NCBI RefSeq assembly: GCF_024713945.1
Contig: NC_134685.1
Span: forward strand, 1,979,001 to 2,043,000
Reading direction: 5' to 3'
Origin: Dermatophagoides farinae
Taxonomy: Eukaryota; Arthropoda; Arachnida; Sarcoptiformes; Pyroglyphidae
Length of the DNA: 64,000 nucleotides
Positions 29,576 to 60,647 of this stretch are shown piece after piece. A program made the position numbers and the translations under genes. Positions within the stretch are counted from its first letter, which is position 1. Every line of letters begins with the position of its first letter. A model generated the notes under the pieces. It did not search any database. It was not told the DNA's origin and was given only the letters and a program-made list of their open reading frames with translations.

Positions 29576-32500
29576 TCAAAAATAACTATTGTATTTGTAA
29601 GGTTTAATTAAATGTTCATTACGATAATGTTCAATTCGTTCGGCACGTTCATGGCGATTGATTAATGGATTGTACTTGATACAGAAAACAATCAATGCAA
29701 TTGTGTGATAAAATATGGCCAATAAAACAAGTTTCACTATGCATTCATAGAAATATTCATTATTCGTTGGCACGTTCAACATATATAACAATGATTGTAT
29801 TTCATATGGACGACAACGATCACCACCATATATAAGCAATAATGTTGATGGAAATTGATAACGATAAAATGAAAAATTTGATAGAAAACGTACAAAAAAA
29901 TTCTTATCTTCAATTACATTGCATACATCGGATAATAATAGAAAAAAACCTTGTGATGATCCTATCAGAATAAATAAGAGGATGATTGATTTGCGCAATA
30001 ACACTATGATTATATTAACTATGGCCACAAAAGAAAATGATGATAAATATAAATTCAACACTTGCCAGACGAAATAATTATTTGGCGAAACCGATGAATA
30101 GATATCGGTTATATAAACAAACATTATGGCCATTGGTAGAATAGTGATAGCATCGAACAACAATTTCGACAGATAATAAGCACCACAAGTGTACCAACCT
30201 TCAAATTAAAATAAATTAGAATAAGAAAAAAACAAAAAATACAAACCATTTAAATGTTGAGTTGAAAAAAATTTCAATTCTGACGTGAACAAGTTGATCA
30301 TTTGTATGTTCATTATTAAAAAGAATGTGACGCTGGAAAAGAGGGCATAATTTACATTATTGACAAGTCGTAAATCTTCTATAAATTTTTGATTGGTAAC
30401 ATTAGAACAAATAGCGAGGAAATCATCATCCATTGATATACAACCATCAGTTTCAGCTATTTTTTCATCAAAAAGATCGCGAAATGAAGCAGATATAAAA
30501 ATATACATGATTGTATAGGCTAGCCATATTGGCCATTGATATCCGAATGAAAAATGAACTAAACGACGGAATAAAATGGCTACCGATCGCAATGAGAATC
30601 GAATTTGATGAAATTGTACACCATCCTTGATATGAACAGTATCCTGTAACAGCGACGGTGTGATTTTATGGATTTGATTATCGGTTTCTTCAGCTAATCG
30701 TTGCACGATGGGATTCGAGTGACCAGTGCAAGAATATCGAATGAGAGATTCGATTGGAAATCGTTTATCATTGTCAATGGAAGATGCCTCTGTGAGAAAG
30801 CTTTTGATTCCGGATGGAGGTCCCGAGTAGATACCCAGACCATCGAATGCAAGCACATAGCACAGGTCAAACATGTCCAACTGCTCGGTACTAGGTTGGT
30901 GAATGCTGACCACCATAGTGATATCCGGATGTCGAGCAATGAATCGTCGAAGACATTGAAGGACCAACCGTGCTGAATTGGAATCCAGCCCACTGACTGG
31001 TTCATCGATACAGATCAGATTGGGCATTCGAACTGATGTCAGTTCCATCGCCAGAGCCAGTCGCTTCCTTTCTCCACCGGAGCAATTCTGCACCATGGTG
31101 TTGGCCGTGTTGGCCATGTCTAATTCATCGAGAAGTTTGGTTGCCACTTGTTCGTGGTCAATTGTTTGTCCTTGGTGACAATTTTTCAATTTAGAAGCAT
31201 AAACCAAGCTTTGTTTGCTCGTCAAACCAGGTATCAGGTGATTTGACACTTCTTGGTTTATATAGCAAGTTCGAATTGGTACGAAACGACTGAGATAGAA
31301 TTGTGTCGAACCGGTCAGTTTGGTTTTCATTTTGCCATTGAAAACCTTCAATAGTGACGTTTTGCCCGAACCGGAGCTGCCCATGATTGCATTCAATGTT
31401 CCGAACTGAAATTGTCCACTGAGATTCCGCAGTATTAACTTATCTCCAAAATCATCCAGTGATTCAGGTGTCGGACGCACCTCATAGATAGTTTCGGTAG
31501 CAAACAATGTCAAGTGACGCCATCCGATAATATAGCGGCCATTACAAAATTGTTGAAATTCGTTTTCGTTGGGCAAATTAACTTCAAAGTTATTATTACT
31601 GTCGATCATCTGGACAGAAGTAGGCTTTTCATAGAAATCAATTTCAATTGAAGGTGTTAGCATTTTCGTCAAGATTTCCATTTTCTTTTTTGATACGATT
31701 TTCCCATTGTTCACAATTCTAAATGTCCAACGCATCACAACGACAGATATGATTCGAATCACTATTATAATATATATAGGGTACATTATGTTCCAATAGA
31801 CATTGTCTGGGTCGATAAAAAATTGTTTCAAAATCTTTGAATATTCTGTTTGAGGATCACAACGATCAATACCGAAGAATACATAAATAAATCCTTCCAT
31901 TAAATATCGAGTACCAATTATATCTGAAATGGCCAAATAAAATGGTTTGTCCATTATATCAATCGATACCACTAATCCATTAGTCATAGTAGATATGGTA
32001 ATTATCACTTGACATAGTAGAAGAAGTAATTCTAGTTGATCAATACAAGTTGCCAGAACAAAATAACCAAATGATTGACCGTACGAAAATATGAGGTAAT
32101 AAAATAAAATTAAAATCTCCAAACGATGCCAATTGATTTGATATTCATCAACATAGATGATACCGCAAGTTAAAAAGAAAAATATGGCGGTCATTAAAAC
32201 AATGAAAAACGAGGTGATCACGTCATTCACATGAACTGGATAAATCAATGAAGCATAACTGTACCAACCTAGAAGTAAATAATTAAAATTAGCAAATATT
32301 TTTTTCAATGATTGTTTGATGACACATTCCCTTACCATTGCGATATTCATGACGAAGAACTTTCATAAAATTGAGGGCAACCAAAGAATTCATTCCTATA
32401 CTGATTGTTAAAAAAGCAAGCGTAGTGAACGTTAAAAACATGAAAAATGTCATATTTAATCGATCATTTTCCAATTTATTCTGACAAGTTTGATTGTAAT

Positions 32501-33674
32501 GCTCTATATCGAATGGCAGACATCCTTCAGGCATCAACATATCTTTATTGGTGATTAATGCAAACAGTATCAAGTTGATAGTGATATTGGCCAAAACACC
32601 AATCAGGATTCGAACATCGGCAATAAATGCTAAACACAGAAGACGTTTGAATTGTGTCCAAAGATCGAAGAAACGGAATTTTTTTGAATAATGAGGAATG
32701 CCCTTTGGAATCGATTCGAATGGGCATTCGTTTTCGTTTAATTTGTTGATATGAGATGTCAGTCCTCGATGGTGTTGTTGGACACTCTCTTGAGTCAATT
32801 TCCTCACTTGTTCATCATCAATGCCGTTGCTAGCGATACGAAGATATTCTTGAATTGGCGATTCATCCTCATTCAATGCGATTCCTGTGATTCGATTCAA
32901 ATGTGGCCGTAATCGATCCGGATGGTCAGAATAAATGCAAACACCTCCCTTGGCTATGATGTACAGTTGATCGAACATATTCAATATGTCCGAACTAGGA
33001 GCGTGGATTGAGACAATGACTGTGATGCCATTCTGCTTGGACAATCGCTGTAGACACTTCATTACCACTAATGCTGACTCACTGTCCAAACCGGTGGTCG
33101 GTTCGTCGACAAACAAAAATGGTGGCTTCGATTCGATCGACATTAGCTCATGAGCGATGGCCACTCGACGTTGTTCGCCACCAGAACAATTTTCGAAACG
33201 TGTTTGCAACACTTTCGGATTCAACATCAATTCCTGGATTGTTGACTGGATGTGTTGATACGCTCGACCGTGATTGTGAGCAGGATTCTTGAAGCAGAAT
33301 GCATAATACAAAGTCTCGAGAACTGTGAACCGTCCCAAAATGATCTCATGGACGAATTGTGGCACAAAACTGACCAATGAATTCGATGACTTTGCGATTA
33401 TCTCACTGTTGATATAAATTTCTGTGTCGGATGAAATATTCTTGGCTGGAACATTGCCGATGAGACAATTGATCAGCGAAGTTTTGCCGGCACCAGAAGG
33501 TCCGAGCAATGCATTCAGACTGTTCAACCTTACTGAACCATTAAGACGGTTGAGGATTACTTTTCGTTTGCGACTTGCTTTCCAACCGTCGACCATACAC
33601 CATTCATCGACTTCATAGCGTAAATTTTTCCAACAAAGAGAAATTGGCTGATCACAACGTTGTTCGTTCGACAT
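29576..33674 (-). CDS. Full-size ABCG-like transporter, copy A (intact)
   Basis: An ATP-driven efflux-type pump with ABCG reverse order: NBD1-TMD1-NBD2-TMD2. Exons 33674-32336, 32268-30247 and 30198-29576 have matching phase-1 GT-AG junctions and give 1,327 aa with no break. NBD1 (about 20-240) has Walker A GPSGAGKTS, signature NCSGGEQRR, Walker B FLFVDEPTTGLDS and H-loop VSIHAPSS. NBD2 (about 540-770) has GSSGSGKTS, NCSGGERKR, LICIDEPVSGLDS and VSIHQPS. All ATP-binding and hydrolysis residues are present in both sites. Each TMD has about six hydrophobic segments, and each is split by an intron at the same place (N|GWY). The first ATG (MSNEQRC) is used; the frame extends upstream only through a GTG. 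It is one arm of an inverted duplication with copy C. Animal ABCG proteins are usually half-transporters, so the family name is by similarity. Substrate is unknown. Confidence 0.88.
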
Positions 33675-33681
33675 CGTTTGG

Positions 33682-33708
33682 TTAAATAATTTTATGGTCA
33701 CACTTCAT
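33682..33708 (-). promoter_or_regulatory. Upstream ORF (8 codons) before ABCG copy A
   Basis: An ATG that opens an 8-residue frame (MKCDHKII) and stops just before the transporter ATG. The same element is present before copies C and D. Confidence 0.5.
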
Positions 33709-33792
33709 TTTCACAAATATAACAAACCCAGTAAAAATGTTCAATAATGAATTTATACTTTGAATTGAGCATGCGATCAGGAGTTTATCATG

Positions 33793-33800
33793 TTTATATA
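33793..33800 (-). promoter_or_regulatory. TATA element of ABCG copy A
   Basis: TATATAAA on the minus strand, about 120 bp before the ATG, followed about 30 nt later by CTCAATTC, an initiator-like string. The arrangement is conserved in copies B, C and D. Confidence 0.55.
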
Positions 33801-34242
33801 TCAGATTCATTGGAATTTATAAAAAAAAAATTCAATGTCAAATACATTCATATAACCATCAAATCAGAAATAAAATCAGCGTAATCAAAAAAAAAAAAAA
33901 AATAAAATATTCCTGGAAATTTTTTTTTATCAATGCATTATGTTGATTTTGAATTGATGGTGATGCGCATTCTTATTTTAACATTATCTTTTTTTTCTTT
34001 TGTGAATGCAGACATTATCCTATATCGTTTGGATGATGTAGTAAAACAAATTATCATCATATTAATTAATATTCACATTTATCAAATGGCATTATTTTTC
34101 CGTTTTATTGAACAACAATTTATTCGCTTAAACGTTTGAATGAACTGATGATGATAAATTTTGATGATAAGCTGTTCATCATAATTTCATTTTCAAACAA
34201 AAAAAATCATATATAAATCAAACATAGATACTGAATATTTAT

Positions 34243-34487
34243 TGACTTAATTGTGGTGTTCTTGGTCCAATACTGGATGAACCTGTCGTTGATGGCGTTG
34301 ATGTTGATGATGGTTGTATATCACTTTGTTGTCTATGATTATTATCAATATTAAAACCAATAATATCGATAAAGTAGTTATCATCATGTTTTTCATCTTC
34401 AAACCAAATTATTTAATAATTTTTAATCTATATTATCTTTATTTTGTAATATAGTAATGATGTGGTTAATATACGTGGTACATTTGT
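34243..34487 (-). pseudogene. 3'-end fragment of the single-pass membrane protein gene
   Basis: On the minus strand this matches the 3' end of the gene at 48349-49589: the block ending GSSSIGPRTPQLSQ and stop, plus the preceding stretch back to VPRI.TTSLL. It contains changes that break the frame (for example a GAT-to-TAA/ATT series near 34415). It lies upstream of copy A exactly as the intact gene lies upstream of copy C, so it was co-duplicated. Similarity ends abruptly near 34487. Confidence 0.8.
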
Positions 34488-34968
34488 CGATGATGATCGT
34501 CGTTTTTTCGTCATATTTTGACAATGATTTTGTTGTAATATTGTGGATAAGAAGCTTTGTTAAAATATCGGCCAACATTGTTCTTATGGCTGGATATATT
34601 TTATGTCCATTTTTTCAACTAGCGAAAACCGAAAAAGCATTTCTCCAGCACGTCATTTTTGAAAGAGATCTTTTTTCCCGGCAACCCAATGCTATTATTT
34701 CCATGGTGATTATTATCATCATTGTTGATGATGATGCATAATATTGTTATAAGGAATCTTATTTTTCTCGTTTTACAAAGAAAAAGCAATCGATTTGATC
34801 ATGCCAACCTGATTTTGAGCACTTATTATTTATATATGTGTGAGTACTTAATTCTTCAATTTTGATCTTTATTTTAAATGTTGTTTTTTTTAGGTGTGCG
34901 TTTGTGCGTTTCCAATAGAATACAGATATTCGATATTCGATTTTCGATAATCGCAACACTACAATACG

Positions 34969-35895
34969 ATGGGTAATCAATCAGTTGTACGAAATAATAA
35001 TAATGAACATCATGAATCATCATCGAACGAATTAATTGATTTAATGATTGAATTTCATTCAAATCGTTCGAAAGCTGACGATGAATTTCATTCAAAACGT
35101 TCGAAACTTGATGATGAATTTCATTCAAAACGTTCGAAACTTGATGACGAATTTCATTCAAAACGTTCGAAAATTGATGATGAATTTCTGAACGAATTAC
35201 TTAAAATTCAGATGAAAAACAATTACAGTATCAATGAGATGAAAAATGATCAACAATCATCAAACGCAGCAATGTCATCACCGAATAAAACGATTCCAAC
35301 AACAACGTATGAAAAAAACGAATCAAGACAATCAAAATTAACAACATCGATAGATCGAAATTCAACGGCAAATAATAATCCAATTGAAAATGTTCAATCA
35401 CAAACAAACCGGAGGCAGCAACAGCAAAAACAACAACAAACGAATTCTATTGTTCGCCAAACAACAACACAAAAACAATCCAATCAAACAGCAATTCCGA
35501 ATAATAATGGTTTAAAACGAAAATCTGGTCATCATTATGTAGTATCCAATGATAATAATGATTTCAGATTGAAAAAGACACCGAAAATTTCAGCACAACA
35601 GACAATAGTCATAGCAAATAATTTAAACATGAATGATAAAAACGATTCTATTGTTGTTGATGATGATGATGATGATGATGATGACTACGAAAATTCTCGT
35701 TCATCCGCTCATATACCGTTATATCGTTTTCCATGTTCACACAATGGATGTCAATATGTAACGAATAATAATAAATATATGAATAATCATGTGAAACATC
35801 ATGACGGTGTAAAAATTTTTCAATGTACAAAATGTTCTGCAAATTTTCCTACCGAACCTGGTCTACATGGTCATTTTTTTCGTAAACATCAATGA
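34969..35895 (+). CDS. C2H2 zinc-finger protein 1, 308 aa
   Basis: A single-exon frame from ATG (MGNQSVVRNNNNEHHE). The N-terminal third carries tandem 11-residue repeats (DDEFHSKRSKL, four units, 33 bp each). The middle is N/Q/S/D-rich and includes a KRKSGHH basic stretch and an acidic D8 run. The C-terminus has two C2H2 fingers: C-x4-C-x12-H-x3-H (CSHNGCQYV...HVKHH) and C-x2-C-x12-H-x4-H (CTKCSANF...GHFFRKH). Two fingers suggest nucleic-acid or protein binding; the role is unknown. An acceptor-like TTTTTTTTAG at about 34895 could mark a 5' UTR intron. It is paralogous over about 1.3 kb, including flanks, to the gene at 41176-42975. Confidence 0.8.
   Translation: MGNQSVVRNNNNEHHESSSNELIDLMIEFHSNRSKADDEFHSKRSKLDDEFHSKRSKLDDEFHSKRSKIDDEFLNELLKIQMKNNYSINEMKNDQQSSNAAMSSPNKTIPTTTYEKNESRQSKLTTSIDRNSTANNNPIENVQSQTNRRQQQQKQQQTNSIVRQTTTQKQSNQTAIPNNNGLKRKSGHHYVVSNDNNDFRLKKTPKISAQQTIVIANNLNMNDKNDSIVVDDDDDDDDDYENSRSSAHIPLYRFPCSHNGCQYVTNNNKYMNNHVKHHDGVKIFQCTKCSANFPTEPGLHGHFFRKHQ
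35062..35193 (+). repeat. 33-bp coding minisatellite, four units
   Basis: Units of the type GATGATGAATTTCATTCAAA followed by ACGTTCGAAACTT encode DDEFHSKRSKL. The paralogue has only one unit, so the array expanded after duplication or contracted in the paralogue. Confidence 0.8.

Positions 35896-36800: not shown

Positions 36801-36839
<39 letters not shown>
36801..36839. repeat. (GT)n microsatellite
   Basis: A nearly pure 39-bp GT run that abuts the retrotransposon relic. Confidence 0.95.
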
Positions 36840-37073: not shown

Positions 37074-38217
37074 TTAACTATTGAATTTTGCTATCCCATC
37101 TATGGTTGTTGTGATAAAGTCCTGCCAATCTCTCGTTAATTCGTTGGACGCCAGAATTCTTTTTATGTCCAGTAAATCTCTCGGTTGAATTCCGTGTTTA
37201 GTCGTTAAGAGGTGCCTCTCTCGGGTCCATCCGTCGCAGAATTGAATTGCATGTTCCAGGTGAGTGACCATCGCATGGACATTTATCATCGTTTATGAGT
37301 TTGAATCGGTGTAGATAATGTTTTGTTGGTCCGTGGCCAGTCAGGAATTGGGTAATTTGTTTAGTTGTTGTAGTTTCTATCTTTTTCTCAAATTCTCCGA
37401 TGATTTCGGTGTTTGGCAACAATCGGTTTGTCCATCTTCCGGTGCTCGACGTAGCTGTTCTGATCATCCGTTTTTGGTTCGATTCTTGCCGGCACAAATA
37501 TTTGAATGACGATACTGGTATTTTTTCGTAGATGGCATTGGTTTGGTTTAATGATGCTGTCGCTCCTTTGGCTAGATTGTCTGCCATCTCATTCCATCTG
37601 TAATTGCTGTGTGCTTTGATCGTTGTACAGCTTCGTTGTAACGTTTTTGCCTCTTAATATGTCAATTTGATTGTTTATTTCAAAGACAATTGGATGGCAG
37701 TTCGCTCGATTGGCTATTGACTCAAGGGCTGATCTTGAATCAGAGAAGATGCTGATCGAACTGTAATTCATCTGTTTGCATCTACTGATTGATTCTTTTA
37801 TTGCAATAAGTTCAGCTTGAAATACTGCAACAACCATCTGCCAGTTTCCATTGGTGTTGCTCTATTAATTGCCCGTTTGCTGTGAACACGCTTGCGGCTC
37901 CTGTGCGATTATTTAGTTTGCTGCCGTCAGTGAATATATAGACACCATCCCCCCCAATATTTTTTCATCTATCTGGTTATGGTTCAACATTTGCGTGTAT
38001 CCAGTTTTGAACCATTTGCCTGGGTGCGGTAATTCTGTTGTCGGCACCGGCGTTTCTAACTTCCCGTTGCATAGGTGTAGTTCAATACCGGTGAGTAATT
38101 TTGTTTTTTTCATGGCTGCCCTTTCCATGATTTTAATATCGATAGGTATCACATTGTTGCCTAGGAAGACCGAGGTAGTATATGAGATCGTATATACGAT
38201 TACCACCTACAAGCATT
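37074..38217 (-). mobile_element. Degenerate non-LTR retrotransposon fragment (RNase H domain and C-terminal knuckle)
   Basis: Minus-strand pieces in three frames together read as the end of an I/R1/jockey-like second ORF. They are, in order: a connector (TELPHPGKWFKTGYTQMLNHN), the RNase H motifs YIFTDGSKLNNRTGAAS, then FQAELIAIKESI, then IFSDSRSALESI, then NYRWNEMADNLAKGA, and a C-terminal CPCDGH...EHAIQFC knuckle followed by WTRERHLLTTKHG. The catalytic D-E-D pattern of RNase HI is recognisable. At least three frameshifts separate the pieces (about 37925-37945, 37630 and 37250), so it is inactive. Endonuclease and reverse transcriptase parts are absent (5' truncated, as is typical). The sequence is GC-richer than its surroundings. 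Confidence 0.8.
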
Positions 38218-41175: not shown

Positions 41176-42975
41176 ATGGGTAATCAATCAGTTGTACGAA
41201 ATAATAATAATAATAATGAACATAAGGAAGAATCATCATCATCAAACGAATTGATTGATTTAATGATTGAATTTCATTCAAATCGTTCGAAAGCTGATGA
41301 GTGTTTGAATGAATACTTTAAATTTCTTAACCCTAGAAAGGTAACCTACGTAAAATTTATGCTTTTTGCACTTCAAAATGTTCCAAAAAAACACTCACGA
41401 TGCTAAGACAGCTGGAACCCCTTTCTATTCCTCAAGAATATATTTCTACACCTTTAGAAATAGAAAAGATCCAGTTTTCGCCTTTTATCTGTTATCTATA
41501 AGCTCAGGCGTAAAAGCTTGTACGTAAAATTTACGTATGGTTGCCTGAATCAGCATAGAAAAATCTTAGAAAATTTTGCTGAGAGCGATAGTTTCGGAAA
41601 TTTTTCCCAAAAAACGTCATTTATGAATAAAAATAATTTTAATCTTTTTCTTTTTTTTATCTTTTCACTTGTCAAAAACGTTTTTTCTCGCAATATTTTT
41701 TGAAATAAACGTCTTTTCTGTTCATTTGTTTATGTTTTTCACTTTATTCAAAATTAAAATGCTTGCAAAAAGCGTTTAACAACGACCGGATGTAAACGTT
41801 GTGGCACCGCCCCCGTGACGAATATCAGATAAAAATTTGTCAATCATGTTTCGAAATACAATCATCGATTGATTAATCATATTTACAGGATCATTTTTCA
41901 TTTTTTCTTGACGCTGTGATAATTTCAAAATTGACAATAAAAAAAAATTCAAAATTTACACCATATCTTTGATTTGATATTTTTGAACTTTCCACTTTTG
42001 AAAAATGATTTTTTTTTTCTTTAATATAAAATAGAGGTGTGATTCAATGAATAAACGTTAAAATTTAACATAAATAATCAGATGAATAATTTTTATAGCG
42101 GAAATAAGTTAGGCATATCAACTACGTAAAATTTACGTAGGTTACCTTTCCCGCAATATCGATAAGGTTACCTTTCTAGGGTTAAAAAAACGAATGATGA
42201 ATTTTTGGAAAAATTACGTAATATTCAAATGAAAAACAACAACAATAACAATGAGATGATTGATGGTCGAATTTTGAACAATCAACAATCATCATACGCA
42301 GCAATGTCATCATCGAATAAAACGATTCCAACAACAATGTATGAAAAAAACGAATCAAGACAATCAAAATCAACAACATCGATATATCGACACATGGATC
42401 GAAATTCAATGGCAAATAATAATAATCCAATTGAAAATGTTCGATCACAATCAAACCGGCAACAGCAGCAGCAGCAACAACAACAACAACAAACGCATTC
42501 ATTTGTTCGCCAAACAACAACAACAAAAACATCGTCCAATCAAACAGCAATCCCGAATAATGATGATAATAATAATAATGGTTTAAAACGAAAATCTGGT
42601 CATCAAAATGTAGTATCCAATGATAATAATGATATCAGATTAAAAAAGACATGTCCACCGAAAATTCCAACACAACAGACAATAGTGATTGCAAATAATT
42701 TAAAAATGAACGATAAAAACGATTCTATTGTTGTTGATGATGATGATGATGATGATGATGATGTCTACGAAAATTCTCGTTCAACCGCTCATATACCGTT
42801 ATATCGTTTTCGATGTTCACACAATGGATGTCAATATGTAACGAATAGTAATAAATATTGGCAAAATCATCAAAGACATCATGATGGTGAAAAAATGTAT
42901 CAATGTCCAAAATGTTCTGCAAATTTTCTTAGCGAACCTGGTCTACATGGTCATTTTTTTCGTAATCATCCATGA
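41176..42975 (+). pseudogene. C2H2 zinc-finger gene 2, interrupted by a piggyBac-type MITE
   Basis: Paralogue of the gene at 34969. The 5' part (41176-41330) encodes MGNQSVVRNNNNNNEH...SNRSKADECLNEYFKF. The 3' part (42186-42975) encodes the N/Q/S-rich middle, an acidic D-run and two C2H2 fingers (CSHNGCQYV...HQRHH; CPKCSANF...GHFFRNH). Between them is an 851-bp MITE flanked by TTAA. The two parts with one TTAA total 945 bp, so the frame is continuous (314 aa) across the insertion site. With the MITE in place the frame reads a short way into the element and stops at 41406. Everything else in the gene is intact, which suggests a recent insertion or a polymorphic one. Confidence 0.85.
41331..42181. 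mobile_element. piggyBac-type MITE, 851 bp, TTAA target site
   Basis: Flanked by TTAA at 41327-41330 and 42182-42185. Termini are inverted: CCCTAGAAAGGTAACCT at the left and its reverse complement at the right. The first ten bases agree with the known piggyBac terminus, and TTAA is the obligate piggyBac target. Subterminal palindromic motifs (TACGTAAAATTTACGTA type) occur near the left end, at about 41519 and at 42122-42140. No transposase frame is present, so it is non-autonomous. Confidence 0.9.
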
Positions 42976-43748: not shown

Positions 43749-46700
43749 ATGTCGAACGAACAACGTTGTGATCAGCCAATTTCTCTTTGTTGGAAAAATT
43801 TACGCTATGAAGTCGACGAATGGTGTATGATCGACGGTTGGAAAGCAAGTCGCAAACGAAAAGTAATCCTCAACCGTCTTAATGGTTCAGTGCGGTTGAA
43901 CAGTCTGAATGCATTGCTCGGACCATCTGGTGCCGGTAAAACTTCGCTGATCAATTGTCTCACCGGCAATGTTCCAGCCAAGAATATTTCATCAGAAACT
44001 GAAATTTATATCAACAAAGAGATAATCGCAAAGTCATCGAATTCATTGGTCAGTTTTGTGCCGCAATTAGTTCATGAGATAATCCTAGGACGGTTCACAG
44101 TGCTCGAGAGTTTGTATTATGCATTCTGCTTCAAGAATCCTGCTCACAATCAGGGTCGAGCGTATCAACACATCCATTCAACGATCCAAGAATTGATGTT
44201 GAACCCAAAAGTGTTGCAAACACGTTTCGAAAATTGCTCTGGTGGCGAACAACGTCGAGTGGCCATCGCTCAAGAACTGATGTCAATCGAATCGAAACCA
44301 CCGTTTTTGTTCATCGATGAACCGACCACCGGTTTGGACAGTGAGTCAGCATTGGTTGTAATGAAATGCCTACAGCGATTGTCCGAGCAGAATGGCATCA
44401 CAGTCATTGTCTCAATCCACGCTCCTAGTTCGGACATATTGAATATGTTCGATCAACTGTACATCATAGCCAAGGGAGGTGTTTGCATTTATTCTGACCA
44501 TCCGGATCGATTACGGCCACATCTGAATCAAATCACTGGAATCTCATTGAATGAGGAAGATTCTCCGATCCAGGAATATCTTCGTATCGCTAGCAACGGC
44601 ATTGATGATGAACAAGTGAGGAAATTGACTCAAGAGAGTGTTCAACAAAGCCATCTACGACTGACATCTCATATCAACAAATTAGCCGAAAACGAATGCC
44701 CATTCGAATCGATTCCAAAGGGTATTCCTCATTATTCAAAAAAATTCCGCTTCTTAGATCTTTGGACACAATTCAAACGTCTACTGTGTTTAACATTCAT
44801 TGCCGATGTTCGAGTTCTGATAGGTGTTTTTGTCGAAACCACTGTCAACTTAATACTATTTGCATTAATCACCAATAAAGATATGGTGATGCCTGGAGGA
44901 TGTATGCCATTCGATATAGAACATTACAATCAAACTTGTCAGGATAAATTGAGAGATGATCGATTAAATATGACGTTAATTGTGTTTTTAACGTTCATTA
45001 CGCTTCTTTTCTTAGGACTCAGTATAGGAATGAATTCCTTGATTGCCGTCAATTCTATGAAAGTTTTTCGCCATGAATATCGCAAAGGTAAGACAATGAA
45101 TGGAGAAAAATATTCTCTAATTTGAACTATTTACTCATAGGTTGGTACAGTTATGCTTCATTGATTTATCCAGTTCATGTGAATGACATGATCACTTCGT
45201 TTTTTATCGTTTTAATGTGCGTCATAATTTTGTTTATGACTTGCGGTATCATCTATGTTGATGAATATCAAATAAATTGGCATCGTTTGGCGATTTTAAT
45301 TTTATTTTATTACCTTATGTTTATGTACGGACAATCATTTGGTTATTTTGTTCTGGCAACTTGTATTGATCAACTAGAATTACTTCTATTGCTATGCCAA
45401 ATGATACTTATCATATTTATTATGACTAATGGATTATTGGTATCGATTAATATAATGGACAAACCTTTTTATTTGGCTATTTCGCATATAATTGGTAATC
45501 GATATTTAATGGATGGAATTATTTATGCATTCTTCGGTATTGATCGTTGTGATCCTCATACAGAATATTCAAAGATATTGAAACAATTATCTATCGATCC
45601 AGACAATGTCTATTGGAACATAATGTATCCAATGTTTGTTACAGTAGTGATTCGAATCATATCTGTTGTTGTGATGCGTTGGACCTTTAGAAATGTGAAC
45701 GATGGAAAAATCGTATCGAAAAAGAAAGTGAAAACCTTGGCGAGAATCCTAACACCTTCAATTGAAATTAATTTCCATGAAAAGCCTACTTCTGTTCAGA
45801 TGATCGACAGTAATAATAACTTTGAAGTTGATTTGCCCAACAAAAATGAATTTCAACAATTTTGTAATGGCCGCTATATTATTGGATGGCGTCACTTGAC
45901 ATTGTTCGCTACCGAAACCATCTATGAGATGCGTCCGACACCTGAATCACTTGATGATTTGGGAGATAAGTTAATACTACGGAATCTCAGTGGACAATTT
46001 CAGTTTGGAACATTGAATGCAATCATGGGCAGCTCCGGTTCGGGCAAAACGTCGCTGTTGAAGGTTTTCAATGGCAAAATGAAAACCAAACTGTCCGGTT
46101 CGACACAATTCTATCTCAGTCGTTTCGTACCAATTCGAACTTGCTATATCAACCAAGAAGTGTCAAATCACCTGATACCTGGTTTAACGAGCAAACAAAG
46201 TTTGATTTATGCTTCTAAATTGAAAAATTGTCACCAAGGGCAAACAATTGACCATGAACAAGTGGCAGCCAAACTTCTCAACGAATTAGACATGGCCAAC
46301 ACGGCCAACACCATGGTACAGAATTGCTCCGGTGGAGAAAGAAAGCGATTGGCTCTGGCAATGGAACTGACATCAGTTCGAATGCCCAATCTGATCTGTA
46401 TCGATGAACCAGTCAGTGGGCTGGATTCCAATTCAGCACGGTTGGTCCTTCAATGTCTTCGACGATTCATTGCTCGACATCCGGATATCACTATGGTGGT
46501 CAGCATTCACCAACCTAGTACCGAACAGTTGGATATGTTTGACCTGTGCTATGTGCTTGCATTCGATGGTCTGGGTATTTACTCGGGACCTCCAGCCCGA
46601 ATCAAAAGCTTTCTCAATGAGGTATCTTCTATCGATGATGATAAACGATTTCCAATCGAATCTCTCATTCGATATTCGTGCACTGGTCACTCGAATCCCA

Positions 46701-47851
46701 TCGTACAACGATTAGCTGAAGAAACCAATTATCAAATCCACAAAATCACACCATCGCTGTTACAGGATACGGTTCATATAAAGGATGGGGTACAATTTCA
46801 TCAAATTCGATTCTCATTACGATCGGTAGCCATTTTATTCCGTCGTTTAGTTCATTTTTCATTCGGATATCAATGGCCAATACGGCTAGCCTACACATTC
46901 ATGTATATTTTTATATCGGCTTTATTTCGAGATTTTTTCAATGAAAAAATAGCTGATATTGATGGTTGCATATCAATGAATGATGATTTCCTCGCTATTT
47001 GTTCGAATGTTACCAATCAAAAATTTATAGAAGATCTACGTCTTATCAATAGTGTTAATTATGCCCTCTTTTCCAGTATCGCATTCTTTTTCCTATTGGA
47101 CATGCAAATGATCAACTTGTTCACGTTAGAATTGAAATTTTTTTCAACTCAACATTTAAATGGTTTGTATTTTTTGTTTTTTTCTTTTTCTAATTTATTT
47201 TAATTTGAAGGTTGGTACACTTGTGGTGCTTATTATTGTCGAAATTGTTGTTCGATGCTATCACTATTCTACCAATGGCCATAATGTTTGTTTATTTAAC
47301 CGATATCTATTCACCTGGTTTCGCCAAACAATTATTTCGTCTGGCAAGTGTTGAATTTATATTTATCATCATTTTCTGTTATGGCCATAATGAACATAAG
47401 CATAGTGTTACTACGTAAATCACTAATCGCCTTATTCATTGTTGTAGGATTTTCACAAGGTTTTTTTCTATTATTATCCAATATTTACACTGTAATTGAA
47501 GATTTGAATTTTATTGCGCGATTTTTTTCATTTTTATCAATTTATCGTTATCAATTTCCATCAACATTATGGCTAATCTATGGTGGTGAACGTTGTCGTC
47601 CATATGAAATACAATCATTGATGTATATGTTGAATATTCCAACCAATAATGATGAATATTTTTATGATTGTATGGTGAAACTAATTTTATTGGCCATATT
47701 TTATCACACAATTGCATTAATTGTTTTCTGTATCAAATACAATCCATTAATCAATCGACATGAAAGAGTCGAAAAAATCCAAGAATTTCGTCAAAAACGT
47801 TTAATTAGTTCTTACAAAAACAATAATCATTCGACCAATTTTTTGTTTTAA
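43749..47851 (+). pseudogene. Full-size ABCG-like transporter, copy B (frame broken in last exon)
   Basis: Same architecture as copy A. Exons are 43749-45087, 45141-47162 and 47211-47851; exons 1 and 2 have exactly the lengths of copy A (1,339 and 2,022 bp) and are open. Both NBDs keep Walker A, CSGGE signature, Walker B and H-loop. In exon 3 one base is missing near 47237 (TATTATTGTC where A and C have TATTATCTGTC), giving a stop at 47282. An extra base near 47314 (CACCTGG) would restore the original frame further on, but after that stop. The tail differs from A and C (ends NNNHSTNFLF). Loss of all but the start of TMD2 would be expected to inactivate it, unless one of the bases is an assembly error. 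The start has two adjacent ATGs (MMSNEQ). Confidence 0.8.
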
Positions 47852-50196: not shown

Positions 50197-53100
50197 ATGT
50201 CGAACGAACAACGTTGTGATCAGCCAATTTCTCTTTGTTGGAAAAATTTACGCTATGAAGTTGATGAATGGTGTATGGTCGACGGTTGGAAACCAAGTCG
50301 CAAACGAAAAGTGATCCTCAACCGTCTTAATGGTTCAGTGCGGTTGAACAGTCTGAATGCATTGCTCGGACCTTCTGGTGCCGGCAAAACTTCGCTGATC
50401 AATTGTCTCATCGGCAATGTTCCAGCCAAGAATATTTCGTCCGACACAGAAATTTATATTAACAGTGAGATAATCGCGCAGTCATCAAATTCATTGGTCA
50501 GTTTTGTACCGCAATTTGTTCATGAGATAATCCTAGGACGGTTCACTGTGTTCGAAACTTTGTATTATGCATTCTGCTTCAAGGAATCCTGCTCACAATC
50601 ATGGCCGAGCGTATCAACACATCCAGTCAACGATCCAGGAATTGATGTTGAATCCGAAAGTGTTGCAAACACGTTTCGAAAATTGTTCTGGTGGCGAACA
50701 ACGTCGAGTGGCCATCGCTCAAGAACTGATGTCAATCGAATCGAAACCACCGTTTTTGTTCATCGATGAACCGACCACCGGTCTGGATAGTGAGTCAGCA
50801 TTGGTTGTAATGAAATGTCTACAGCGATTGTCCGAGCAGAATGGCATCACAGTCATTGTCTCAATTCATGCTCCTAGTTCGGACATATTGAATATGTTCG
50901 ATCAACTGTACATCATAGCCAAGGGAGGTGTTTGCATTTATTCTGATCAACCGGATCGATTGCGGCCACATTTGAATCGAGTCACAGGTATTGCATTGAA
51001 TGAGGATGATTCGCCGATTCAAGAATATCTTCGTATCGCTAGCAACGGCATTGATGATGAACAAGTGAGGAAATTGACTCAAGAAAGTGTCCAACAAGAC
51101 CATCAACGACTGACATCGCATATCAACAAATTAGCCGAAAACGAATGCCCATTCAAATCGATTCCAAAGGGTATTCCTCATTATTCCAGAAAATTTCGCT
51201 TCTCTGATCTCTGGACACAATTCAAACGTCTACTGTGTTTATCATTCATTGCCGATATTCAAGTCCTGATTGGTGTTTTCGTCTTATGCGCTTTCAGCCT
51301 AATTTTATTCACTTCAATCACCAATAAAGATATGGTGAAGCCTGGAGGATGTCTGCCATTCGATATAGAACATTACAATCAAACTTGTCAGGATAAAGTG
51401 AAAGATGATCGATTAATTGGGACATTTATTATGTTTTTAACGTTTTTAATGCTGCTTTTATTAGCACTCAGTATAGGAATGAATTCCTTGGTTGCCGTCA
51501 ATTCTATGAAAGTTCTTCGCCATGAATATCGCAATGGTAAGGCAATGTGTCATCAAACAATCAATGAAAAAAATATTTGCTAATTTTAATTATTTACTTC
51601 TAGGTTGGTACAGTTATGCTTCATTGATTTATCCAGTTCATCTGAATGACGTGATCACTTCGTTTTTCATCGTTTTAATATGCGCCATAATTTTGTTTAT
51701 AACTAGCGGTATCATCTATGTTGACCAATATCGAATTAATTGGCATCGTTTGGCGATTTTAATTTTATTTTATTGCTTCATATTTTCGTACGGTCAATCT
51801 TTCGGTTACTTGGTTCTAGCAACTTGTATTGATCAACTTGAATTACTTCTACTACTATGTCAAGTGATACTTATTATATCTACTATGACTAATGGATTAG
51901 TTGTATCGATTGATATAATGGACAAACCATTTTATTTGGCCATTTCGCATATAATTGGTACTCGATATTTAATGGATGGATTTATTTATGTATTCTTTGG
52001 TATTGATCGTTGTGATCCTCAAACAGAATATTCAAAGACCTTGAAACAATTTTTTATCGATCCAGACAATGTCTATTGGAATCTAATGTATCCAATGTTT
52101 ATTACAATAGTGATTCGAATCATATCTGTGATTGTGATGCGTTGGACATTTAGGAATGTAAACAATGGAAAAATCGTATCGAAAAAGAAAATGGAAACCT
52201 TGGGAAAAATGCTAACACCTTCAATTGAAATTGATTTTCATCCTACTTCTGTCCAGATAATCGACCGTAATAATAACTTTGAAGTTGATTTGCACAACGA
52301 AAACGAATTTCAACAATTTTGTAATGGCCGCTATATTATCGGATGGCGTCACTTGACATTGTTCGCTACCGATACCATCTATGAGGTGCGTCCGACACCT
52401 GAATCACTGGATGATTTTGGAGATAAGTTAATACTACGGAATCTCAGTGGACAATTTCAGTTTGGAACATTGAATGCAATCATGGGCAGCTCCGGTTCGG
52501 GCAAAACGTCACTATTGAAGGTTTTCAATGGCAAAATGAAAACCAAACTGACCGGTTCGACACAATTCTATCTCAGTCGTTTCGTACCAATTCGAACTTG
52601 CTATATCAACCAAGAAGTGTCAAATCACCTGATACCTGGTTTGACGAGCAAACAAAGTTTGGTTTATGCTTCTAAATTGAAAAATTGTCACCAAGGACAA
52701 ACAATTGATCATGAACAAGTGGCAACCAATCTTCTCAACGAATTAGACATGGCCAACACGGCCAACACCATGGTACAGAATTGCTCTGGTGGAGAAAGAA
52801 AGCGACTGGCTCTGGCAATGGAACTGACATCAGTTCGAATGCCCAATCTGATCTGTATCGATGAACCAGTCAGTGGACTGGATTCCAATTCAGCACGGTT
52901 GGTCCTTCAATGTCTTCGACGATTCATTGCTCGGCATCCGGATATCACTATGGTGGTCAGCATTCACCAACCTAGTACCGAACAGTTGGACATGTTTGAC
53001 CTGTGCTATGTGCTTGCATTCGACGGTCTGGGTATCTACTCGGGACCTCCATCCGGAATCAAAAGCTTTCTCACAGAGGCATCTTCCATTGACAATGATA

Positions 53101-54285
53101 AACGATTTCCAATCGAATCTCTCATTCGATATTCTTGCACTGGTCACTCGAATCCCATTGTACAACGATTAGCTGAAGAAACCGATAATCAAATCCATAA
53201 AATCACACCGTCGCTGTTACAGGATACTGTTCATATCAAGGATGGTGTACAATTTCATCAAATTCGATTCTCATTGCGATCGGTAGCCATTTTATTCCGT
53301 CGTTTAGTTCATTTTTCATTCGGATATCAATGGCCAATATGGCTAGCCTATACAATCATGTATATTTTTATATCTGCTTCATTTCGCGATTTTTCAATGA
53401 AAAAATAGCTGAACTTGATGGTTGTATATCAATGGATGATGATTTTCTCGCTATTTGTTCTAATGTTACCAATCAAAAATTTATAGAAGATTTACGACTT
53501 GTCAATAATGTTAATTATGTCCTCTTTTCCAGTATCGCATTCGTTTTAATAATGTCCATTCAAATGATCAACTTGTTCACGTTAGAATTGAAATTTTTTT
53601 CAACTCAACATTTAAATGGTTTGTATTTTTTGTTTTTTTCTTATTCTAATTTTTTTTTGTAGGTTGGTATACTTGTGGTGCTTATTATCTGTCGAAATTG
53701 TTGTTCGATGCTATCACTATTCTACCAATGGCCATATTGTTTGTTTATATAACCGATATCTATTCACCGGTGTCGCTAAATAATTACTTCGTCTGGCAAG
53801 TGTTGAATGTATATTTATCATTTTTTTCTATTATGGCCATAATGAACATAAGCATAGTGTTACTACGTAAATCACTCATCGCCTTATTCATTGTGGTCGG
53901 ATTTTCACAAGGCGTTTTTCTATTATTATCCAATATTTACAATGTAATTGAAGATTTGAATTTTATCGTTCGATTCTTTTCATTTTTTTCAATTTATCGT
54001 TATCAATTTCCATCAACATTGTGGTTAATCTATGGTGGTGAACGCTGTCGTCCATATGAAATACAATCATTGATGTATATGCTGAATATTCCAACCAATA
54101 ATGAATATTTTTATGATTGTATAACTAAGCTAGTTTTTTTGGCCATATTTTATCACACAATTGCACTGGTTGTCTTTTGTATCAAATACAATCCATTAAT
54201 CAATCGACATGAACGTGCCGAACGAATTGAACGTTATCGTAATGAACGTTTAATTAAATCTTACAAATGCAATAGTTATTTTTGA
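50197..54285 (+). pseudogene. Full-size ABCG-like transporter, copy C (two frameshifts)
   Basis: Closest to copy A over coding and 5' flank. Exons are 50197-51536, 51604-53618 and 53663-54285. Exon 1 is one base longer than in A: an extra G near 50583 (AAGGAATCC) shifts the frame within NBD1, before the signature. Exon 2 lacks six bases (two residues after SIEIDFH) and one T in a T-run near 53392, which gives a stop at 53406 at the start of TMD2. All other motifs are intact, including GPSGAGKTS, NCSGGEQRR, GSSGSGKTS and NCSGGERKR. Both frame changes are single bases in homopolymers, so an assembly error is a live alternative. If corrected, the product would be about 1,325 aa. Confidence 0.75.
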
Positions 54286-55183
54286 AAAGAATCAACCTGT
54301 TTTCGTTCAAAAAATATCATCATGAACTAGTTAATAAATATCAATATAATATTTTTTCTCCATTCAATCATTTGATGATCATCTAATCATATTTATTCAC
54401 TGGAAATCACTTCAAAAACCTGTTTTTCATTTTATTCCATAGAATTTCGTTATCAGTATTTTTATTTTTCGTTTTAAATGTTTGAATCATCACGTACTAT
54501 TACTACTAAGAAACTGTGAAGAAAATCTGGATATTCGATGCAATTTATGATAAAACAATCGTGATTGACAATGATGATAACAGATTTTTAATTCAATAAT
54601 AATCATGCCTTCTAACAACGTTTTCATTGATATTTTTTCCACATGAAAGTTACAAGTCTAGTTGTTGATGTTTATATTTTATATTATTTTAAATTGTTTA
54701 GTATGCATTAAATCCAGATTTGTCTTCAATCAATTAAAAGGTTTTTTAGTTTTTTTTAAATAAACCCATGAGGGAGGTACACACCATCGATTTTTGATTA
54801 TAAATAAATTGTTGAACATTTGAAACTAATACAATTGAGTTAAATGATGATGAGTATTACTAAACAATAAAAAAAACGGTAAAATAATGCCATTTGATAA
54901 ATAATGTGAATATAATTGATGATGATAATCCTTTTTACTTTTTTCGTCAAAAAAAAGGGGATATTGTATGCATTCACAAATGAAATAAAAAGATAATGTT
55001 AAAATAAGAGTGTAAAACCACTAACAATTCACAATCATCATTATAATAATCTACTATTGATAAAAATAAATTTCCTGGTATTTCATTAGTTTGATTACGC
55101 TGATTTTTTTCTGACTTGATAGTCTGATATAAATGTATTTGGCATTGAAATTTTTTTTTATGAATTCAAATGAATCTATCTAA

Positions 55184-55191
55184 TATATAAT
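55184..55191 (+). promoter_or_regulatory. TATA element of ABCG copy D
   Basis: TATATAAT at the conserved position, about 118 bp before the ATG. Confidence 0.45.
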
Positions 55192-55274
55192 CATGATAAA
55201 CTCCTGATCGCGTGCTCAATTCAAAGTTTGAATTCATTATTGAACATTTTACTGGGTTTTTTATATTTGTGAAA

Positions 55275-55301
55275 ATGAAGTGTGACTATAAAATTATTTA
55301 A
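55275..55301 (+). promoter_or_regulatory. Upstream ORF (8 codons) before ABCG copy D
   Basis: Encodes MKCDYKII and stops just before the transporter ATG. It differs from the copy C version by one residue. Confidence 0.5.
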
Positions 55302-56260
55302 CCAAACGATGTCGAACAAACAACGTTGTGATCAGCCAATTTCTCTTTGTTGGAAAAATTTACGCTATGAAGTCGATGAATGGCGTATGGTCGACGGTTG
55401 GAAACCAAGACGCAAACGAAAAGTGATCCTCAACCGTCTTAATGGTTCAGTGCGATTGAACAGTCTGAATGCATTGCTCGGACCTTCTGGTGCCGGCAAA
55501 ACTTCGCTGATCAATTGTCTCATCGGCAATGTTCCAGCCAAGAATATTTCGTCCGACACAGAAATTTATATTAACAGCGAGACAATGGCAAATTCATTGG
55601 TCAGTTTTGTGCCACAATTCGTCCATGAGATCATTTTGGGACGTTTCACAGTGCTCGAGACTTTGTATTATGCATTCTGCTTCAAGAATCCTGCTCACAA
55701 TCACGGTCGAGCGTATCAACACATCCAGTCAACGATCCAAGAATTGATGTTGAACCCAAAAGTGTTGCAAACACGTTTCGAAAATTGCTCTGGTGGCGAA
55801 CAACGTCGAGTGGCCATCGCTCAAGAACTGATGTCGATCGAATCGAAGCCACCGTTTTTGTTTGTCGACGAACCGACCACCGGTTTGGACAGTGAGTCAG
55901 CATTAGTGGTAATGAAGTGTCTACAGCGATTGTCCAAGCAGAATGGCATCACAGTCATTGTCTCAATCCACGCTCCTAGTTCGGACATATTGAATATGTT
56001 CGATCAACTGTACATTATAGCCAAGGGAGGTGTTTGCATTTATTCTGACCAACCGGATCTATTACGGCCACATTTGAATCGAGTCACAGGTATCGCATTG
56101 AATGAAGATGATTCTCCGATTCAAGAATATCTTCGTATCGCTAGCAATGGTATCAATGATGATCAAGTGAGGAAGTTGGCTCAAGAAAGTGTCCAAAAAG
56201 ACCATCGACGACTGACATCTCATATCAACAAATTAGACGGAAATGAATGCCCATTCGAAT

Positions 56261-57415
56261 CGATTCCAAAGGGTCTTCCTCATTATTCAAGAAAATTCCG
56301 CTTCTTTGATCTTTGGACACAAGTCAAACGTCTACTGTGTTTTACATTCATTGCTGATGTCCGAATCCTGATTGGTGTTATTCTGTTGAGCGCATTTGCC
56401 ATTTTTTTAAATACTTCAATCACAAATAAAGATATGTTACTTCCCCGAGGATGTCTACCATTCGATATTGACAATCTTAATCTAACTTGTTCAGATAAAT
56501 TAAAAGAAGATCGGTTAATTGGAACATTCATCATGCTATTAATGATGATGTTAATGTTGATTATATCACTCAGTATTGGAATGTATTCAGTGATGGCTAT
56601 CAATTTTATGAAAGTTCTTCGTCGAATATCGTAAAGGTAACACAATCAAATACTTCACCTATATTTCTAATAATTTCTTCATTTTTCTTACATAGGTTGG
56701 TACAGCTATTCATCATTAATTCATCCACTCTATGTGAATGATATGATTACATCAGTTTTCTTAATCATTGTAATCTGCGTAATAATCTTCTACGTAAGTT
56801 CCGGTATCATCTATGTTGATCATTATCGTATTAATTGGCATCGTTTGGCGATTTTAATTTTATTTTATCAGTTCATATTTTTATATGCACAATCATTTGG
56901 TTATTTATTGATCGCCACTTGTATTGATCAAAATGAATTACTCATTCTTCTTTGTCAAGTTTTTGTGGTTATTTTAAATTTTTCAAATGGACTGATGGTT
57001 ATCGATTGATCTTATGGGTAAACCAATGGATATTGCTGTCTCTCACATAATTGCAACTCGTTATATAGCTGCTGGATTTTTATATTCATTCTATGGTATT
57101 GATCGTTGTGATCCTCATACAGAATATTCAAAGATATTGAAACAATTATCTATCGATCCAGAAAATGTCTATTGGAACATAATGTATCCAATGTTTGTTA
57201 CAGTAGTGATTCGAATCATATCTGTTGTGTTGATGCGTTGGACCTTTAGAAATGTGAACAACGGAAAAATCGTATTGAAAAAGAAAATAGAAACCTTGAC
57301 AAAAATGATAACACCTTCAATTGAAATTGATTTCCATGAAAAGTCTACTTCTGTCCAGATGATTGACAGTAATAATAACTTTGAAGTTGATTTGCCCAAG
57401 GAAAACGAATTTCAT
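56261..57415 (+). repeat. 1,155-bp tandem duplication, first unit
   Basis: Starts CGATTCCAAAGGGTCTTC, which reappears at 57416, and a constant offset of 1,155 holds for landmarks such as TTCTGTTGAGCGCATTTG. It contains the end of exon 1, the intron and the first third of exon 2. Its last about 300 bp match copy B rather than the second unit. Confidence 0.85.
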
Positions 57416-58570
57416 CGATTCCAAAGGGTCTTCATCATTATTCAAGAAAATTCCGCTTCTTTGATCTTTGGACACAAGTCAAACGTCTACTGTGTTTTAC
57501 ATTCATTGCTGATGTCCGAATCCTGATTGGTGTTATTCTGTTGAGCGCATTTGCCATTTTTTTAAATACTTCAATCACAAATAAAGATATGTTACTTCCC
57601 CGAGGATGTCTACCATTCGATATTGACAATCTTAATCTAACTTGTTCAGATAAATTAAAAGAAGATCGGTTAATTGGAACATTCATCATGCTATTAATGA
57701 TGATGTTAATGTTGATTATATCACTCAGTATTGGAATGTATTCAGTGATGGCTATCAATTTTATGAAAGTTCTTCTATTCGAATATCGTAAAGGTAACAA
57801 ATCAAATACTTCACCTATATTTAGTAATAATTTCTTCATTTTTCTTACATAGGTTGGTACAGCTATTCATCATTAATTCATCCACTCTATGTGAATGATA
57901 TGATTACATCAGTTTTCTTAATCATTGTATCTATAATAATCTTCTACGTAAGTTCCGGTATCATATATGTTGATCATTATCGTATTAATTGGCATCGATT
58001 TGGAACAGCATTTTCATTTGTCTCAGTTGTATTTTTATATGCACAATCATTTGGTTATTTATTGATCGCCACTTGTATTGATCAAAATGAATTACTCATT
58101 CTTCTTTGTCAAGTTTTTGTGGTTATTTTAAATTTTTCAAATGGACTGATGGTTATGTTTGATCTTATGGGTAAACCAATGGATATTGCTGTCTCTCACA
58201 TAATTGCAACTCGTTATATAGCTGCTGGATTTTTATATTCATTCTATGGTATTGATCGTTGTGATCCACGAACAGAATATTCACAACTACTAAAACAATT
58301 TTTTGTTGACCAAGAAAATGTTTATTCGAATCTCAAGTATACTGTGATTGCATTATTAGTGGTTCGAATCATATCTGCAGTGTTGATGCGTTGGACATTT
58401 AGAAATGTTAACAATGGAAAAATCGTATCGAAAAAGAAAATGGAAACCTTGGCGAGAATCCTAACACCTTCAATTGAAATTGATTTCCATGAAAAGTCTA
58501 CTTCTGTCCAGATGGTCGACAGTAATAATAACTTTGAAGTTGATTTGCCCAACGAAAATGAATTTCAACA
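57416..58570 (+). repeat. 1,155-bp tandem duplication, second unit
   Basis: Near-identical to the first unit up to about 58250, then diverged (CDPRTEYSQLLKQFFVDQ against CDPHTEYSKILKQLSIDP). Confidence 0.8.
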
Positions 58571-60647
58571 ATTTTGTAATGGCCGTTATATTATCGGATG
58601 GCGTCACTTGACATTGTTCGCTACTGATACCATCTATGAGGTGCGTCCGACACCTGAATTGCTGGATGATTTTGGAGAGGAGTTAATACTACGGAATCTC
58701 AGCGGACAATTTCAGTTTGGAACATTGAATGCAATCATGAGCAGCTCCGGTTCGGGCAAAACGTCGCTGTTGAAGGTTTTCAATGGGAAAATGAAAACCA
58801 AACTGACCGGTTCGACACAATTCTATCTCAGTCGTTTCGTAGCAATTCGAACTTGCTATATCAACCAAGAAGTGTCAAATCACCTGATACCTGGTTTGAC
58901 GAGCAAACAAAGTTTGGTTTATGCTTCTAAATTGAAAAATTGTCACGAAACACAAACAATTGACCATGAACAAGTGGCAAGCAAACTTCTCGATGAATTA
59001 GACATGGCCAACACGGCCAACACCATGGTGCAGAATTGCTCTGGTGGAGAAAGAAAGCGACTGGCTCTGGCGATGGAACTGACATCAGTTCGAATGCCCA
59101 ATCTGATCAGTATCGATGAACCAGTCAGTGGGCTGGATTCCAATTCAGCACGGTTGGTCCTTCAATGTCTTCGTCGATTCATTGCTCGACATCCGGATAT
59201 CACTATGGTGGTCAGCATTCACCAACCTAGTACCGAGCAGTTGGACATGTTTGACCTGTGCTATGTGCTTGCATTCGATGGTCTGGGTATCTACTCTGGA
59301 CCTCCAGCCCGAATCAAAAGCTTTCTCACTGAGGCATCTTCCATAGTTGATGATAAGCGATTTCCAATTGAATCTCTCATTCGATATTCATGCACTGGTC
59401 ACTCGAATCCCATCGTACAACAATTAGCTGAAGAAACCGATAATCAAATCCATAAAATCACACCGTCGCTGTTACAGGATACTGTTCATATAAAGGATGG
59501 TGTGCAATTTTATCAAATTCGATTCTCATTGCGATCGGTAGTCGTTTTATTTTTACGTTTAGCACATTGTTCATTCGGATATCAATGGCCATTATGGTTA
59601 GCCTACACATTTATGTACATTTTTTTGGCTAGTGTATTTCGAAGCTATTACGATTTAACAATTACCGAAATTGATGGTTGTTTATCAATGGATGATGATT
59701 TCCAAAGCCACTGTACAAATGTTACCGATCAAATATGGAAAGAACAATTACGTCTTGCCAATAATATAAATTATGTTCTTTTTTCCGGTTTTACATTCGT
59801 TTTTATAATGGAAGCACAAATAATTAATATGTTTGTGAATGAATTGAAATTTTTTTCCACACAACATCTGAATGGTTTGCAATCTAAATGTTTTGAAAAA
59901 GTTTTTCATTCTAACTTTTCATTTTTCTTTCAATTTTAGGATGGTATTCTTGTGGTACCTATTATCTATCGAAATTGTTATTTGATTCAATCACGATCAT
60001 ACCAATGGTCATCATCTATTTCTATATAACCGATATCTATACACCGGTTACACCAAATAATTTTTTCGTCTGGCAATTATTCATTGCATTTTTATCAGCA
60101 TTATCCATTATGGCCCTGACCAATATAAGCATAATGTTTTTACATAAATCATTTGTTGGCTTATTCATTGTGGTTGGATTTTCACAATGCATTTTTCTAT
60201 TATTATCAAATATTTACAATGTAATTGAAGATATGAATTTTATCGTTCGATTTTTTTCATTTTTTTCAATTTATCGTTATCAATTTCAATCAACATTGTG
60301 GTTAATCTATGGTAGTGAACGTTGTCGTCCGTATGAAATACAAGCATTGATGTATATGTTGAATATTCCAACGAATGATGAATTTTTCTATGAATGTATA
60401 GTGAAACTAGTTTTATTGGCCATATTTTATCACACAATTGCATTGATTGTCTTCTGTATCAAATACAATCCATTAATCAATCGACATGAACGTGCCGAAC
60501 GAATTGAACGTTATCGTAATGAACGTTTGCTTAATCAAGAAGAAAAACATAAAACAATTTTGTTTATTTAATAAATTTTTTAAAAATAATTAGAAATCTT
60601 TATCATTAATAATTTCCAAATAATCATAATCATCATCGATCATATAA

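Follow-up and report, generated by a model that had tools for sequence, protein, structure and literature searches.

ABC transporters of the G subfamily are known from animals as half-transporters (ABCG1/4 and white type; TIGR00955), in which an ABCG-type nucleotide-binding domain (NBD) precedes a transmembrane domain (TMD) and each chain carries one of either. According to the survey of T. urticae, in the parts available, only ABCG half-transporters have been reported for metazoans (PMC3724490), and the corresponding parts of the copepod and Anopheles surveys describe ABCGs as half-transporters in most metazoans (PMC4247197, PMC6471920). The T. urticae survey, to the same extent, also describes an expansion of the ABCH half-transporters (PMC3724490), arthropod proteins in which the NBD likewise stands before the TMD. 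The fungal PDR transporters (Pdr5, CDR1; TIGR00956) are, in contrast, full-size proteins of about 1,510 aa that hold (NBD-TMD)x2 in one polypeptide. Plants are a further group from which full-size ABCG proteins are known. Here we describe a family of full-size ABCG-type transporters in the mite Dermatophagoides farinae, starting from a window of 64,000 nucleotides (NC_134685.1, positions 1,979,001 to 2,043,000; C9:1979001-2043000 of the 62.4-Mb assembly in 22 contigs), to which all positions given without a contig refer. A sequence-only reading of this window had proposed that one gene, copy A, reads as an unbroken protein of 1,327 aa with two NBDs in ABCG order, and that three further copies (B, C and D) share its plan.

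Spliced translation and inspection of the motifs agreed with the proposal for copy A, the features of which are as follows.

29576..33674, minus strand: copy A, full-size ABCG-like gene, intact (no stop or frame break in the spliced translation)
33674-32336, 32268-30247 and 30198-29576, minus strand: the three exons of copy A, the last including the stop codon (spliced translation)
32269..32335, minus strand: intron 1 of copy A, phase 1, in TMD1 between EYRNG and WYS (spliced alignment)
30199..30246, minus strand: intron 2 of copy A, likewise phase 1, in TMD2 between QHLNG and WYT, at the position equivalent to that of intron 1 (spliced alignment)
32889..33641, minus strand: NBD1 of copy A, residues ~12-262 (Pfam ABC_tran, E 7e-17; motif check)
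30728..31462, minus strand: NBD2 of copy A, residues ~716-960 (Pfam ABC_tran, E 4e-16; motif check)

The product comprises exactly 1,327 aa in the order NBD1, TMD1, a hydrophilic linker of about 90 residues, NBD2 and TMD2, and the two introns (67 and 48 bp) both have GT-AG borders. Each NBD possesses Walker A, the signature CSGGE, Walker B (DEP), the D-loop and the H-loop residues (NBD1: GPSGAGKTS, CSGGE, DEPTTGLDS, SIH; NBD2: GSSGSGKTS, CSGGE, DEPVSGLDS, SIHQ). ABC_tran was matched in both NBD exons, and no Pfam family was matched in the third exon.

Searches of the whole genome with the three exons of copy A, the counts of which are lower bounds, identified at least 30 loci (L009-L038) that share this plan, spread over contigs C3, C4, C6, C7, C8 and C9; six of the loci (L020-L023, L026, L029) lie in one array at C3:5.61-5.64 Mb. 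When the loci were modelled by a purpose-written protein-to-DNA spliced aligner, 23 of the 30 were intact from NBD1 through TMD2, each with a downstream stop codon, and in 21 of these 23 an in-frame ATG coincided with or preceded the first aligned codon. The seven others comprise copies B and C, L031 and L033, which are frame-broken, copy D, which is duplicated internally, and L036 and L038, which exceed the fetched stretch. Pairwise identity among the intact loci ranged from 35 to 94% with a median of 43%. The same genome also encodes ABCG half-transporters, 11 of which were looked at. The tandem family of full-size ABCG genes that had been suggested for a mite is therefore larger than its members in the window, and the gene models across the 30 loci support the (NBD-TMD)x2 architecture in an animal. 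We are highly confident that this architecture is genuine, and see in it an unexpected form of a familiar transporter class, a full-size ABCG occurring at some 30 loci.

As animal ABCG proteins are known as halves, each locus might consist of two separately transcribed half-transporter genes that lie head to tail and merely appear fused. Locus L019 speaks against separate half transcripts, as its TMD1 lacks an intron and NBD1, TMD1, the linker and NBD2 are encoded in one uninterrupted frame of 1,122 aa; for this paralogue, the sequence thus opposes the separate-halves alternative that had been named as a possible refutation. In 27 of the 30 loci, TMD1 is interrupted by the first TMD intron, and one exon therefore encodes both the end of TMD1 and NBD2. 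No stop within aligned codons was met in any of the 30 loci, and no frame break was recorded in any locus between the TMD1 intron and the end of NBD2. With the nucleotide frequencies of the window, the probability that 100 codons are free of stops is about 3e-4 per locus, a value that does not multiply across the loci because they are related. In addition, the ratio of nonsynonymous to synonymous substitution rates (dN/dS), determined for 12 hand-chosen pairs of 253 possible ones, was below one for the linker in all 12 pairs (0-0.73), and the 23 intact loci run from NBD1 to TMD2. Taken together, two separate genes appear very improbable at these loci, and gene structure strongly indicates that each gene would encode one NBD1-TMD1-linker-NBD2-TMD2 protein of about 1,300 aa.

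The ATP sites were compared in a family alignment of 26 of the 30 loci, which includes B, C and L033 and excludes copy D (L013), L031, L036 and L038. The Walker A lysine, the DEP motif and the H-loop histidine were kept in both NBDs of all 26 loci. The signature CSGG was present in NBD1 of 26 and in NBD2 of 24 loci (CSDG in L028, CSNG in L037), and the Q-loop of NBD1 in L028 has no Q. A degenerate first ATP site as in PDR was found in none of the 26 aligned loci; in Pdr5, the Walker A lysine of NBD1 is replaced by cysteine and NBD2 has no normal signature, whereas the mite family has the consensus at both sites. The mite proteins are also shorter than fungal PDR (about 1,320 aa). With the half-transporters of its own genome the family shares an EHRNGWY-like stretch in the TMD and, by eye, with those of animals an RC cysteine site towards the end of each TMD; it differs from animal half-transporters in having two NBDs and two TMDs per chain. 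Hydropathy of the family mean gave five clear segments and a marginal one for TMD1 and six for TMD2, and in copy A alone the first TMD2 segment lay below the threshold.

The order (NBD-TMD)x2 is that of PDR, and by whole-chain score the top solved-structure chains for both NBD exons were CDR1 and Pdr5, followed closely by ABCG1, ABCG2 and ABCG25. Both observations would fit a scenario in which the mite acquired a full-size PDR transporter gene horizontally from a fungus (or another source) and the gene then multiplied. However, the whole-chain score derives in part from the matching of two NBDs per PDR chain. The NCBIfam models place the family nearer to the pigment precursor permeases (TIGR00955) than to PDR (TIGR00956), with 170 vs 109 bits for the NBD1 exon and 138.5 vs 91.9 bits for the NBD2 exon of copy A, all of these scores, obtained for exon pieces, lying below the curated whole-protein cut-offs. 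The retained Walker A lysine in NBD1 likewise separates the family from Pdr5. A first NBD tree (LG+G4; 76 rows, 234 columns) was calculated from 26 NBD1 and 26 NBD2 domains, 15 half-transporters (11 of ABCG and four of ABCH type) and nine PDB domains; among its NBD1 rows copy C was omitted and NBD1 of L036 was added from L061. A tree under a mixture model and approximately unbiased (AU) tests were based on 50 of the 76 rows, representing 13 of the 26 loci, chosen by hand. NBD1 and NBD2 each formed a clade with a support of 100 in the LG+G4 tree, and the two clades together with the half-transporter L065 were recovered with 94 (LG+G4) and 100/100 (mixture model). Thus, by sequence, the NBD1 and NBD2 clades are sisters, with L065 among them, while the PDR halves stand elsewhere in the trees. 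In the LG+G4 tree, the full-size group joined seven mite ABCG half-transporters with a support of 100. A single clade of full-size and PDR domains was rejected (p-AU 0.0003), as was a clade of NBD2 with PDR NBD2 (p-AU 0.0001). Accordingly, the NBD tree that had been called for, here with mite half-transporters, ABCH-type domains and fungal PDR, set the full-size NBDs apart from PDR. Our confidence against an origin from PDR is high, and horizontal transfer of such a gene is highly unlikely.

Membership in ABCH was considered as well and rejected. Four NBDs of the same genome (L066-L069), which we take to be of ABCH type from their signature features, formed a distant outgroup, and in trees rooted on them every full-size NBD was found on the ABCG side (100/100).

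The introns bear on how the full-size form arose. A phase-1 intron is present at the same residue in TMD1 of 27 and in TMD2 of all 30 loci, at residues 447 and 1121 of copy A (between NEHRNG and WYS or similar). It is also found in L065, a half-transporter gene at C5:5257912-5259775 on the minus strand, which has degenerate ATP-site motifs and groups with the NBD1 clade, and which may represent a remnant from before the fusion. The sharing of this intron by both TMDs and L065 is most simply read as duplication of a half gene, followed by fusion. Based on the sequence comparisons, full-size ABCG appears most likely to have arisen independently in an animal lineage, through a separate fusion; for the route itself, tandem duplication and read-through, our confidence is moderate.

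Several observations weigh against this interpretation. The mixture model did not recover the clade of the family with the mite half-transporters, even though a clade of the full-size NBDs and eight of these half-transporters was not rejected (p-AU 0.129). The reference set was small, with three animal ABCG and three fungal PDR proteins from the PDB; the mite was the sole arthropod in the NBD trees, and the fungal proteins were the sole full-size ABCG beside the mite family. Among the half-transporters looked at, the phase-1 TMD intron occurred only in L065, one of the eight in which the site was covered, and the placement of L065 is itself unsure, given its degenerate NBD and long branch. The TMDs show five to six hydropathy segments each, and no clean six. 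The stretch of NPADF type that follows the NBD in ABCG1 and ABCG2 (NPFDF in ABCG5) is replaced by PIEEY- or FPIEEL-like motifs in the full-size family. With respect to novelty, the available part of PMC4247197 contains a sentence that mentions ABCG full transporters in oyster and shrimp; the works cited there bear titles that name ABC or multidrug transporters generally. Apart from this sentence, no annotated full-size arthropod ABCG was found in the mostly open literature, in the parts of it that were available. The accessible portions of two studies on other mites give ABCG counts or comments and mention no full-size ones (PMC7738191, PMC5467014), and it is possible that such genes have been annotated earlier in other mites. 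Finally, constraint on TMD1 may be weak, because dN/dS reached 0.95 for this domain, the loosest part of the protein, in one pair.

This last value would also be expected if the family consisted mainly of decaying tandem copies and the full-size form were non-functional, as would the frame breaks in B, C, L031 and L033, the internal duplication in D, and the degenerate motifs in NBD1 of L038 (L062), a locus outside the 26-locus alignment. Against such decay stand the 23 intact loci and the ATP-site motifs, which are kept throughout the aligned loci save for the L028 and L037 exceptions given above. Moreover, whole-gene dN/dS was 0.16-0.49 in 12 of the 12 pairs. By this measure the family is under purifying selection, and general decay is hardly credible as an explanation.

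Silent sites indicated that parts of the genes may have had different histories within the C3 array. Divergence at fourfold-degenerate third positions, pooled over its 15 pairs, was 0.24 for NBD1 and 0.23 for NBD2 as opposed to 0.40 for TMD1 and 0.41 for TMD2. NBD2 was closer than TMD2 in 12 of the 15 pairs, and NBD1 was clearly closer than both TMDs in seven, as in L023/L026, where six of 101 fourfold sites differ in NBD1 vs 34 of 66 in TMD2. The five pairs of the array that involve L021 displayed no such contrast for NBD1, and the reverse contrast was observed for L022/L023, L022/L029 and, only slightly, L023/L029. No contrast was found in 66 pairs of dispersed copies (NBD1 0.57, NBD2 0.61, TMD1 0.58, TMD2 0.54), nor a clear one in the 10 pairs of the A group (0.20, 0.25, 0.26 and 0.23 in the same order). 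Gene conversion of parts of the genes would explain both directions of the contrast in the C3 array.

The account that we consider the best explanation, and hold to be very probable, is that these are genes for full-size ABCG transporters of a mite, which would have arisen by tandem duplication and fusion of a half gene, multiplied to about 30 copies, and may encode monomeric exporters. An ABCG half-transporter gene that already contained the phase-1 TMD intron would have been duplicated in tandem, the two copies would have been fused by read-through at a joint without an intron, and the fused gene would then have been multiplied. Each protein may work as a monomer that uses ATP to export hydrophobic compounds (lipids or xenobiotics) from gut, cuticle or excretory cells, in whose outer membrane it would putatively reside. 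As a single polypeptide would supply the two ATP sites and the complete membrane channel, no partner would be needed and the membrane halves would be free to differ; this one-chain mode of action is modelled on that of established ABCG and PDR transporters. Fast-changing TMDs could provide different copies with different substrates. On a broader scale, an independent animal invention by fusion, with about 30 genes of which, in at least one cluster, parts and most visibly the NBDs are kept alike by conversion while the TMDs diverge, would represent a counterpart of the PDR network with a broad substrate range, a view that we favor with some reserve.

Export of lipids or xenobiotics by these proteins is plausible by analogy, at low confidence. 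A role restricted to endogenous lipids or sterols (cuticle, egg, gut) rather than xenobiotic efflux is a serious contender whose chances we put slightly below even. In the LG+G4 tree, one of the two calculated, the family and the mite half-transporters joined ABCG1 with a support of 67, and ABCG1 handles sterols; in the mixture-model tree, by contrast, ABCG1 stood elsewhere. The many copies with diverging TMDs fit a lipid or a xenobiotic role equally. Large and fast-changing transporter families are also typical of xenobiotic handling. The mite full-size ABCG genes are hence candidates for export of either kind. The table in PMC12364353, in the part available, lists two ABC transporter G family member 20 genes with values of +1.1 to +1.5, which have not been linked to the full-size family.

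A large and conserved family of this kind in a mite breaks the half-transporter rule for metazoan ABCG and would constitute a second origin of the full-size form, comparable with fungal PDR. Since the fusion fixes which halves pair, asymmetric ABCG function becomes open to study in an animal protein. A low median of ABCG genes is given for arachnids in the available part of PMC8290562. Counts of ABCG genes that assume one NBD per gene may have mis-scored fused loci.

The three further copies in the window have the following positions.

43749..47830, plus strand: copy B, three-exon plan as in A (spliced alignment; L010)
50197..54282, plus strand: copy C, same plan as A (spliced alignment; L012)
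55309..60532, plus strand: copy D, plan as in A with an internal duplication (L013; start taken from the open frame)
56259-57414 and 57414-58567, plus strand: the duplicated units of copy D, direct, 1.16 kb, through the TMD1 region (93.7% identity)

The proposal that B, C and D share the plan of A held, whereas their intactness did not. Copy B is 88% identical to A and has two frame breaks, both in TMD2; copy C is 91% identical to A and has two as well, one in NBD1 and the other early in TMD2; and copy D contains the 1.16-kb duplication. Copy A is thus the sole intact copy in the window. The frame breaks and the duplication may be true lesions or assembly errors alike. Copies A and C are inverted partners over 4.9 kb, flanks included, at 90.3% identity.

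Between A and B lie two genes for related low-complexity proteins on the plus strand (34951-35895 and 42166-42975), which by eye have zinc-finger-like C-terminal ends; no Pfam family was found in the first of them. At the DNA level the two share 85% identity over about 890 bp, and thus this pair has been duplicated as well. An open frame at 37198-37653 on the minus strand resembles, by eye, an RNase H or retroelement fragment. The copies are flanked by genes for a Dlg-like MAGUK with L27, PDZ, SH3 and guanylate kinase domains (23467-27452, plus strand), a Dpy19 homologue (17976-19886, minus strand) and a galectin (61594-62262, minus strand), all three of which are ordinary animal genes by Pfam.

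A gene for a phage-type (GH24) lysozyme is located at 60648-61239 on the minus strand. It contains a 58-bp GT-AG intron (61020-61077), and its product has a signal-like N-terminus by eye and matches Pfam Phage_lysozyme with an E-value of 8e-34, the sole match to that family found in the genome. The gene may have been acquired long ago from bacteria or phage by horizontal transfer. Elsewhere, and in keeping with a mite genome, an ML-domain protein (from the best of seven loci, and the one tested) had the mite allergens Der p 2 and Der f 2 as its closest solved relatives; the protein resembles Der p 2 and is not identical to it.

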